From: an uncultured SAR86 cluster bacterium
GTDB taxonomy: Bacteria > Pseudomonadota > Gammaproteobacteria > Magnimaribacterales > D2472
Direction of reading: 5' to 3'
Assembly: GCA_905478035.1 (NCBI GenBank)
Contig: CAJQGX010000001.1
Span: forward strand, 1-64,000
DNA length: 64,000 nt
Below the pieces are notes generated by a model that had not been told where the DNA came from, did not search any database, and saw nothing but the letters and a program-made list of their open reading frames with translations. The stretch's first letter is position 1; every line of letters starts with the position of its first letter. Positions 2,523 to 47,826 of the stretch are shown in pieces. The translations under genes and the position numbers were made by a program.

Positions 2523-3163
2523 TGAAATCTATAAACAAAAATTTATTCTTAATAGCAATATTTATTATTACTGTAATGAGTTTATTTATAAATAAACTCA
2601 CAACTCCACGAACACTTAGCAATAATGAATTACTAGTAAACGGCTTGTTTTTATTTGAAAAACCAAAACAAATATCAAACTTTGAATTTTTTACCTCTAA
2701 CAACAGGTCTTTCACCAAAGAAGATCTTATGGGTAAATGGACAATTATGTACTTTGGATTTTCAAGATGTCCAGATGAGTGCCCAACAACAATGTATGAG
2801 CTTTCCAAATTAGTTAAGATTCTAAGAGAAAAAAATTACAACCTAAATGATAAACAGTGGGTTTTAGTTACAATTGATCCTGAAAGAGACTCACCTGAAG
2901 ATATAGATAAATATGCGAAAGGTTTTGATGAGGACTTTATTGGTGTTAGCAATCAGAGACCAATGCTTTTAAATTTGGCAACTCAACTTTCTGTAAATAA
3001 TGTTATGCCAAGCTCAAATCATGACATGGATCATTCCCATCTAGACAACCATGTGAATAGCATCATTTTGTTAAATCCAAAAGGTGAATATGCAGGACTT
3101 TTTAGGCCACCATTTAGCACTTCAAGACTCTCTTTAACCTATCAGTCTGTAACCCAGGATTAG
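2522..3163 (+). CDS. SCO1/SenC family copper chaperone for cytochrome oxidase
   Basis: A 213-residue protein with an N-terminal membrane anchor (about residues 7-24) and a periplasmic thioredoxin-like domain. The copper-binding CxxxC motif is C83 and C87 in SRCPDECPTT, and the third ligand is H177 in LDNHVNSIILLNPKG. SCO proteins load copper into the CuA site of oxidase subunit II. A His/Asp-rich insert (NHDMDHSHLDNH) precedes the ligand histidine. The gene starts one base inside the ctaB stop and ends the cox-assembly operon. It overlaps the convergent qor-like gene by four bases, leaving no room for a terminator between them. Confidence 0.92.
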   Translation: MKSINKNLFLIAIFIITVMSLFINKLTTPRTLSNNELLVNGLFLFEKPKQISNFEFFTSNNRSFTKEDLMGKWTIMYFGFSRCPDECPTTMYELSKLVKILREKNYNLNDKQWVLVTIDPERDSPEDIDKYAKGFDEDFIGVSNQRPMLLNLATQLSVNNVMPSSNHDMDHSHLDNHVNSIILLNPKGEYAGLFRPPFSTSRLSLTYQSVTQD

Positions 3164-4164
3164 AAGTTAATTACGACCTTTCCTTTTGCTTTCCTGTCTT
3201 TCAGATGAGCAATGGCATCTGCAGCAGTATCTAGAGTAAATTTATCTGAAGCTTCAGGGTTAATTTTCCTTTCAGCAAACATTGCAAAAAGCTCCTCAAA
3301 ATTTTTCTGATTTTCAGCAGGAAACATTCCAGTCCAGGCTCCCCAAAAAACACCTATTATTTGGCATCCTTTTAACAGAGTTAGATTAAGTGGCATTTTG
3401 GGTATTTGGTCTGCTCCAGCAGCAAAGCCAATCACTAAATATCTTCCTTCCCAAGCTATAGATCTTAGGCATGGTTCAGCATAACTTCCTCCAACAGGGT
3501 CATAGATAACATTAGGACCCATCCCTCCAGTTAGTTCTTTTATCTTATTTGAAAGATCTTTTTGCTGATCTCTATCAAGAATACCTGAGGGGTAAACAAA
3601 GCCTTCATCAGCTCCATTTGCTATACATATATCAACCTTTTCTTGTGTTGAAGCTGCTGCAATTACCTTGGCACCCATCGCCTTGCCTAGCTGGACTGTT
3701 GCTAGACCAACACCACCTGATGCTCCCAATACTAATAAGGTTTCGCCAGGTTGAATATTTGCTCTTTGTTTTAAAGCATAGATTGATGTTCCATATGTAA
3801 CCGAAAGGGCGGCAGCAATTTCAAAATCCATTTCCTCAGGTATCAGTCTCAACATAGATTGATGAGCTAGAATCTTTTCAGAAATACCACCGACACCAGT
3901 TGCTGCAAAAACTTTATCACCAACCGCATAACCAGAAACCCCCTCACCAACCTCTGTAATGATTCCTGCAGACTCTCCTCCAGGTACGAAGGGCAATGGA
4001 GGTTGAAATTGATAAAGACCTTGAATCATTAATACATCAGGGAAATTCACACTGGCAGATTTAACATCAATAATTACATGTTCTGCTGAAACTTCAGGAT
4101 CTGGAATCTCATTAAGTTGAAGTTTTTCTGGACCACCTAATTCTACGCATTGTAAAGCTTTCAT
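3160..4164 (-). CDS. Zinc-independent NADPH:quinone oxidoreductase (MDR superfamily)
   Basis: A 334-residue medium-chain dehydrogenase/reductase of the quinone oxidoreductase branch. The N-terminal GroES-like domain lacks the catalytic and structural zinc cysteines of alcohol dehydrogenases. The Rossmann domain carries LVLGASGGVGLATVQLGKAM for NADPH binding. Likely reactions are reduction of quinones or of enones such as 2-enoyl-CoA and acrylyl-type substrates; the true substrate cannot be read from sequence. A GGGGA ribosome-binding site lies about five bases before the ATG. It follows gshA after 12 bases on the same strand, so it may be the last gene of a pckA-gshA-qor operon. Confidence 0.88.
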   Translation of the reverse strand: MKALQCVELGGPEKLQLNEIPDPEVSAEHVIIDVKSASVNFPDVLMIQGLYQFQPPLPFVPGGESAGIITEVGEGVSGYAVGDKVFAATGVGGISEKILAHQSMLRLIPEEMDFEIAAALSVTYGTSIYALKQRANIQPGETLLVLGASGGVGLATVQLGKAMGAKVIAAASTQEKVDICIANGADEGFVYPSGILDRDQQKDLSNKIKELTGGMGPNVIYDPVGGSYAEPCLRSIAWEGRYLVIGFAAGADQIPKMPLNLTLLKGCQIIGVFWGAWTGMFPAENQKNFEELFAMFAERKINPEASDKFTLDTAADAIAHLKDRKAKGKVVINF

Positions 4165-41646: not shown

Positions 41647-41753
41647 TTTAAATTTTGTAATGCATTATACATAATATATAGCAATATTTATGCACATTAT
41701 ATGCACCACTATTGATGATATTTGAGATAATTCAAATATCTTTATAAAAAGTA

Positions 41754-41781
41754 TTGATAATTAATTATAAATATATATAAT
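41754..41781 (+). promoter_or_regulatory. Near-consensus sigma-70 promoter of the candidate small RNA
   Basis: TTGATA (41754-41759, five of six) is followed after a 16-base spacer by a perfect TATAAT (41776-41781). The expected start of transcription, six or seven bases further, falls at 41788, the first base of a perfect hairpin. The gap from 41647 to 41989 is the longest gene-free stretch in the window: 41647-41753 holds AT-rich fadJ-type gene upstream sequence with two TATGCAC copies, then this promoter, the RNA and a 28-codon ORF. Confidence 0.68.
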
Positions 41782-41787
41782 AATGAA

Positions 41788-41863
41788 TGTCAGCACTCCT
41801 CTCCCCCTATTAGTTTGCTGACACTCTGAAATCATATGGAGGGCTCAGTCCCTCCATTTTTTT
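41788..41863 (+). ncRNA. Candidate small RNA with a C-rich anti-Shine-Dalgarno loop
   Basis: About 76 bases from the predicted start to the end of the T-run. The 5' arm TGTCAGCA (41788-41795) pairs perfectly with TGCTGACA (41816-41823), presenting a 20-base loop that begins CTCCTCTCCCCC. A 12-base linker and an intrinsic terminator follow. The loop is complementary to GGAG-type ribosome-binding sites, as in known C-rich-loop trans-acting sRNAs; this one matches no family I recognise. The loop segment CTCTCC could also pair (with one G-U) with GGAGGG of the terminator's left arm, so an attenuator controlling the downstream genes is an alternative reading. Confidence 0.62.
41836..41863 (+). terminator. 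Intrinsic terminator
   Basis: ATGGAGGG (41836-41843) and CCCTCCAT (41850-41857) form a perfect eight-pair stem with the six-base loop CTCAGT, followed directly by seven T (41857-41863). There is no comparable T-run on the minus-strand side, so it acts on plus-strand transcription. Confidence 0.82.
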
Positions 41864-41884: not shown

Positions 41885-41971
41885 ATGAAGAAATATCAGG
41901 AAATATTTGAAACAGTTATATTAACTAGTTTTTTTATTATATCTGTTATGGCTATAGCCCCAATAACATAA
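41885..41971 (+). CDS. Possible 28-residue membrane peptide
   Basis: An ATG-TAA frame of 28 codons. TAAGG lies about eight bases before the ATG, a usable ribosome-binding site. The peptide begins MKKYQEIFET and continues with one hydrophobic stretch (VILTSFFIISVMAIAP), the typical form of small single-pass membrane proteins. It begins 21 bases after the terminator T-run and ends 18 bases before the peroxidase start. No family is recognised; it may be a chance frame or a leader peptide. Confidence 0.38.
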   Translation: MKKYQEIFETVILTSFFIISVMAIAPIT

Positions 41972-47632: not shown

Positions 47633-47649
47633 AAATTGTGCCGAGGCTA

Positions 47650-47820
47650 ACAAACCAAATCACCGCCATGTGTTATACCTGAACCGAAGGGTCAGGTGGT
47701 GAATTTCATAACAAATCAGGCTTCCCTATAAAGGTACTGCGCAACAATGCTAGAGGAATATCACCTATTTAATTGTATCGGTTCAAATTTATTAACACAT
47801 TAGCGAATGAACCAGAATGC
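47650..47820 (-). ncRNA. ssrS: 6S RNA
   Basis: Minus strand, about 171 bases. Near its 5' end TTCGCTAATGTGTT can pair with AACACATGGCG near its 3' end, forming the closing stem. The 3' half has the 6S hairpin ACCTGACCCTTCGGTTCAGG and then GGCGGTGAT, equivalent to the E. coli GGTTCAAGG...GGCGGCATC region. Internal GAACCGATA and GGGAAGCCT correspond to E. coli GAGCCGATA and GAGAAGCCT at matching positions. It lies between zapA and fau, the expected site. 6S RNA mimics an open promoter and holds sigma-70 RNA polymerase. The 3' end is approximate. Confidence 0.88.
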
Positions 47821-47826
47821 TATTTG

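Follow-up and report, generated by a model that had tools for sequence, protein, structure and literature searches.

A conserved candidate small RNA of SAR86 bacteria with a C-rich loop predicted to pair with the leader of a small membrane-protein gene

The window, a stretch of 64,000 nucleotides from a 1.26-Mb SAR86 genome in 57 contigs, contains a compact element with the layout of an independent transcription unit, located between a fatty-acid oxidation gene and a glutathione peroxidase gene. On the forward strand, a -35 box (TTGATA, 41754-41759) and a -10 box (TATAAT, 41776-41781) are separated by a 16-nt spacer and match 11 of the 12 consensus positions, the joint best score across 40-44 kb. 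They precede a 5′ hairpin (41788-41823), in which TGTCAGCA (41788-41795) forms eight pairs with TGCTGACA (41816-41823) around a 20-nt loop with the first bases CTCCTCTCCCCC; the C-rich seed of this loop, CTCCTCTCCCCCTATTAG, spans 41796-41813. An intrinsic terminator (41836-41863), consisting of an eight-pair stem (41836-41843/41850-41857) and a T run (41857-41863), closes the unit on the same strand. All of these parts lie where an earlier note on this DNA had placed them. Transcription of the predicted small RNA (41788-41863, forward strand) would start at about 41786-41788 and end in the T run. The gene upstream, which encodes a fatty-acid oxidation multienzyme (enoyl-CoA hydratase/3-hydroxyacyl-CoA dehydrogenase; PF02737, PF00378 and PF00725; 39481-41646, reverse strand), is a divergent neighbour only. 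Downstream, on the forward strand, a small ORF (41885-41971) encodes the 28-aa membrane-type sequence MKKYQEIFETVILTSFFIISVMAIAPIT, and 18 nt further on begins a gene of the glutathione peroxidase family (PF00255, 41990-42514), the same order being found in genomes G053 and G197. The intergenic region had also been described as the only long gap in the window. It is the longest, at 355 nt with a simple gene caller, but the next ones measure 270, 258 and 246 nt, and the gap also contains the conserved 28-aa ORF.

Promoter-like and terminator-like matches are no commoner in this AT-rich DNA than expected by chance (12 found versus 15.8 expected and 2 found versus 2.2 expected, respectively), and conservation is therefore the deciding test, which the element passes. 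Its fold of -23.5 kcal/mol compares with -12.2 ± 2.6 kcal/mol for dinucleotide shuffles (z -4.4), none of the 200 being as good. A DNA search matched the element in 91 of the 107 genomes of the window's family (f1), and a covariance model built from 51 copies, to which the copy in the window scores 95.5 bits, located it in 96 of the 107, many of them with a second copy; in the window's own genome the second copy lies at C15:28020-28091. Both sides have changed at 11 of the 16 base pairs in a plain alignment. An alignment of 59 copies fitted to the model, which is biased towards the structure but with which the unfitted alignment agrees, raises this to 13 of 16 and shows compensatory changes at all eight pairs of the 5′ hairpin. 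In this alignment 95.5% of the cells are paired; none of 500 shuffles scored as high and no slid version came near. The stems are variable and the loop core CUCUCCCCCUA is nearly invariant. Thus the comparison of homologous intergenic regions that the earlier note had proposed speaks for the RNA, with both stems kept by compensatory change and the loop kept as well. The note had recognised no named family, and a search of Rfam 15 over the element likewise gave no match, no model coming close to its gathering score even at E values of up to 10. Elsewhere in the window, a 6S RNA at 47648-47821 on the reverse strand (RF00013, 56.4 bits) is the sole Rfam match.

The RNA extends into a sister family (f4), where a pattern search showed that 17 of 21 genomes contain TTGATA with GTCAGTCTCTCCTCTCCCC behind it. 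A marginal covariance match in G197, a member of this family, was read and retained: the order there is L,D-transpeptidase, small RNA, small ORF, glutathione peroxidase and an rpiA-like gene, identical to that of the window but for an upstream insertion of the fad gene in the latter. Another marginal match, in family f3 (G140:C2:26538), was rejected for want of a C-rich hairpin loop. Neither the covariance model nor the pattern search produced a convincing homolog in families f2 and f3, and a search of these families for a small RNA behind the same promoter gave no consistent match. Among GTDB genome contigs, a 22-base piece of the RNA has 28 exact matches, CP097973.1 among them, of which 24 bear the title SAR86 cluster. 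Of the remaining four, one is the gammaproteobacterium SCGC AAA076-P13, two are Gammaproteobacteria MAGs and one is a MAG labelled simply Proteobacteria; none of the 28 is titled as a clearly different clade, and viral contigs held no exact match. Family f1 would correspond to GTDB D2472, called the 'Suzuki' family within SAR86 in PMC11582366, and f4, which shares the RNA, probably to TMED112/CHAB-I-7, two groups that have a common origin (PMC11582366). Taken together, these comparisons indicate that the element is a real small RNA, conserved and structured as judged from its sequence, and not previously catalogued.

The copies are of two kinds. Those of the first kind, as in the window, have an ORF about 28 codons long shortly past the terminator, and then glutathione peroxidase. 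Across the family, and in the sister family as well, this ORF stands behind the copy at the first locus; it has no Pfam match and follows the pattern E-[VIL]-x-x-L-x-x-x-F-x-x-[ST]-x-x-[AG]-[IV]-x-P, which is intact in the first-locus copies that were read. Its pN/pS of 0.44, obtained with pS saturated, argues for a selected peptide of membrane type. For this peptide to be expressed, some transcription at the first locus would have to read through the terminator or begin within the element, and first-kind copies leave room for an additional role in cis as a leader. Copies of the second kind are convergent to an exonuclease-like gene and have no ORF behind them, which argues for the RNA as a unit in its own right. 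The element combines its own promoter, a structured body, an intrinsic terminator and conservation, and its second copies dispense with the ORF. A third copy, in G099 (L034 2511-2643), has a decayed small ORF behind it and is apparently a duplicate of the first locus that is losing its peptide.

Conservation of the promoter reaches well beyond the -35 and -10 boxes. The extended block (41741-41784, forward strand), aligned in 60 or more copies, comprises both boxes, an upstream TTTATAAA and a dyad, TATTGATA (41752-41759) and TATAAATA (41766-41773), separated by six nucleotides. When a weight matrix of this block was run over 1.2 Mb of G053, three sites scored 47-49 bits, namely the two small RNA copies and a pseudoazurin gene, and all remaining sites scored 9.2 bits or less. 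A pattern search for the dyad returned one to four sites in each of 27 genomes of the family, compared with two sites for a control pattern over all 32 genomes searched. These sites lie at the small RNA copies, and every full-match site elsewhere that was read belongs to pseudoazurin (TIGR02375), either as a single gene or as part of an operon that also encodes two small membrane proteins (loci L038 1529-2299, L048 2020-2781 and L094 8475-8918). In some genera the two small membrane-protein genes, of 60 aa and about 50 aa and without Pfam match, precede pseudoazurin, and in one genus pseudoazurin is leaderless, its start codon lying a few bases past the -10 box. Two sites with one mismatch, in G053 and G081, appear to be chance matches. 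A weak, degenerate version of the motif stands before sdhA in two genera (L045, about 1950-2013), scoring 9.2 bits in G053 (G053:C1:370312) and having two mismatches in G061. The second copies in the window's genome and in G088 are without a good motif. By inspection, FNR, Fur and PerR boxes were set aside as identities of the dyad, their spacing or half-sites being different. The shared motif suggests that one regulator ties the small RNA to pseudoazurin.

Candidate targets were sought by folding the loop against the region from -30 to +12 of all predicted genes in G053 and G061 (about 1,190 genes each). The top-ranking gene was the same in both, encoding a 72-aa membrane protein, with pairing energies of -24.1 kcal/mol in G053 and -23.0 kcal/mol in G061; this pairing beats the best conserved pair obtained with any of 40 shuffled loops (-21.4 kcal/mol). 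The leader reads CUAAUAGGGGGGA..AUG, or CCUAAUAGGGGGGA..AUG as scanned in the two genomes, and the predicted pairing site CUAAUAGGGGGG, at about -19 to -8 from the start codon, overlaps the Shine-Dalgarno position. The gene lies between pnp and a tRNA gene and is followed by a diverged paralog of 78-89 aa (L085 12789-13289); the tandem pair is present in nearly all SAR86 genomes tested, and the 72-aa protein has no match in Pfam or NCBIfam.

In leaders read from many genomes, the bases immediately preceding the G run vary from genus to genus together with the loop. A loop with UAUUAG is found with a leader CUAAUA in genera g1 and g8, UAUUA with UAAUA in g9, UAUG with CAUA in g5, g7 and g10, and UAUUUAG with CUAAAUA in g6, so that the seed, with its near-invariant C run, covaries by genus with the leaders carrying its partner CUAAUAGGGGGG. 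When loops and leaders of nine genera were permuted, matched combinations gave -21.1 kcal/mol versus -18.7 ± 0.7 kcal/mol for permuted ones (p = 0.0002, a value that ignores phylogeny, the loop/leader switches numbering only about three or four). In the sister family, the loop CUCUCCCCCAUG predicts TGGGGG before the ATG of the ortholog, and this is present in both f4 genomes tested. The intermolecular covariation points to direct pairing and is the strongest evidence for it: a loop predicted to be single-stranded is complementary to the ribosome-binding site of an unlinked gene, and covariation has kept it so. The suggestion that the loop pairs with ribosome-binding sites of the AGGAG type is thereby upheld in its first part, since the loop is complementary and one leader covaries, and amended in its second, the best site being the G run CUAAUAGGGGGG and not a plain AGGAG. 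In family f3, in which no small RNA was found, the 72-aa orthologs also have G-rich leaders, and the G run may be older than the RNA or independent of it.

As a class, TonB-dependent receptors are plausible additional targets. GGGG occurs at -18 to -4 in 8 of 15 receptor genes in G053 and 8 of 16 in G061, compared with 31 of 1174 (2.6%) and 37 of 1181 (3.1%) other genes, respectively, and in both genomes the mean difference in predicted binding between receptors and other genes is greater with the real loop than with any of 100 shuffled loops. A DmdA/GcvT-like gene is a further candidate. In the window, a quinone-oxidoreductase-like gene (3160-4164, reverse strand) has the leader AAAUAGGGGAAAAUAUG with a GGGG ribosome-binding site; its G run also occurs in G053 and G061, and it is a possible further target. 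Beyond the first target, conserved matches were no more frequent than with shuffled loops, and wider target lists were not accepted, their individual entries being unreliable given that shuffled loops yield as many conserved pairs. For this reason, and because of the G-run leaders of f3, we claim confidence for the 72-aa gene only.

We consider it likely that the element acts in trans, as a small RNA whose loop would cover the ribosome-binding sites of target mRNAs. Transcription from the element's own promoter to its own terminator would yield an RNA of 75-80 nt that displays the C-rich loop CUCCUCUCCCCCUAUUAG single-stranded on the hairpin; the loop would pair with G-run ribosome-binding sites, most strongly at CUAAUAGGGGGG of the 72-aa gene, and by occluding the site would lower translation. 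The RNA is thus predicted to be expressed and its effect to be repression.

An alternative to which we give a small but appreciable probability is that the element is the cis-acting 5′ leader of an operon of the small ORF and glutathione peroxidase, its hairpin and terminator being an attenuator and the short RNA only the terminated product. The small ORF begins about 20 nt past the T run, which leaves no space for another promoter, and has been retained with the element in two families; by inspection, moreover, CUCUCC of the loop can pair with GGAGGG of the terminator arm, with one G-U pair. However, the terminator arm does not covary with the variable part of the loop, whereas the loop, including its non-C part, covaries with an unlinked leader, and the second copies are convergent to another gene with no ORF behind them. 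Less probable still, and improbable in absolute terms, is a decoy whose C-rich loop would sequester the ribosome or a C-binding protein instead of base-pairing to particular mRNAs. This would suit the C run being the most conserved part and resembling a general anti-Shine-Dalgarno sequence, but in every genus the bases after the run (UAUUAG, UAUG or UAUUUAG) fit the leader of one target, and a decoy needs no such match. That a promoter and a terminator, which do occur at chance frequency, met in an intergenic gap around no functional RNA is in practice already refuted by the covariation, and is contradicted by the 96 of 107 genomes, the compensatory changes in both stems and the second locus with its promoter-sRNA-terminator unit.

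Profiles for the common RNA chaperones found neither Hfq (PF17209) in six genomes (G000, G053, G061, G049, G104 and G112) nor ProQ (PF04352) in eight, control genomes being positive for both, although a strongly diverged chaperone could escape such Pfam profiles. The small RNA therefore probably acts independently of both, relying on its GC-rich seed; a seed of comparable kind is known from the C-rich-region sRNAs of Firmicutes (PMC4409812). The class of Hfq-dependent sRNAs presupposes Hfq in the organism, which was not found here.

By its predicted mode of action, the RNA would be a new family of a known kind, the anti-Shine-Dalgarno sRNAs. Reportedly, the CcsR1-4 sRNAs of Rhodobacter sphaeroides are linked in gene order to the gene for a very small protein, CcaF1. 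CcsR1-4 are short stem-loop sRNAs and CcaF1 is RNA-binding (PMC10253847), whereas the 28-aa peptide past the SAR86 terminator is of membrane type and unrelated to CcaF1. The alpha-r14 sRNAs of rhizobia (NfeR1; models SmelA075 and SmelA099) present C-rich anti-Shine-Dalgarno loops, CCUCCUCCC, on variable stems and mask the translation start region of mRNAs, which are thereby silenced (PMC10746234; PMC3927594). The likeness lies in a conserved C-rich anti-Shine-Dalgarno motif in a hairpin loop on variable stems, but alpha-r14 RNAs are alphaproteobacterial and have three hairpins, each with CCUCCUCCC, whereas the SAR86 RNA is gammaproteobacterial, has its own promoter motif and presents CUCCUCUCCCCCUAUUAG with a target-specific tail on one hairpin; with a single CUCCUCUCCCCC hairpin and a terminator, it falls outside that family. 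In RsaE/RoxS and other C-rich-region sRNAs of Firmicutes, C runs likewise prevent translation initiation by pairing to Shine-Dalgarno sites rich in G (PMC4409812), but these RNAs are unrelated in sequence and structure, have several C-rich regions and belong to another phylum.

More tentatively, one regulator at TATTGATA-N6-TATAAATA might control both small RNA copies and pseudoazurin, coupling a change of electron carrier to silencing of TonB-dependent receptors and of the small membrane protein, with the 28-aa peptide as a further effector, in a streamlined lineage without detectable Hfq or ProQ; we regard this wider scheme as possible and somewhat doubtful. SAR86 bacteria are among the most abundant of the surface ocean and mostly uncultured, and their regulation is almost unknown; a search of literature that covers few subscription journals turned up no paper describing an sRNA from this clade. 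The RNA would offer a naturally occurring case of regulation by sRNA in a gammaproteobacterium for which the searches for Hfq and for ProQ were both negative. It brings to SAR86 a small RNA that has one target supported by intermolecular covariation and is linked with a copper electron carrier, perhaps also with nutrient receptors.
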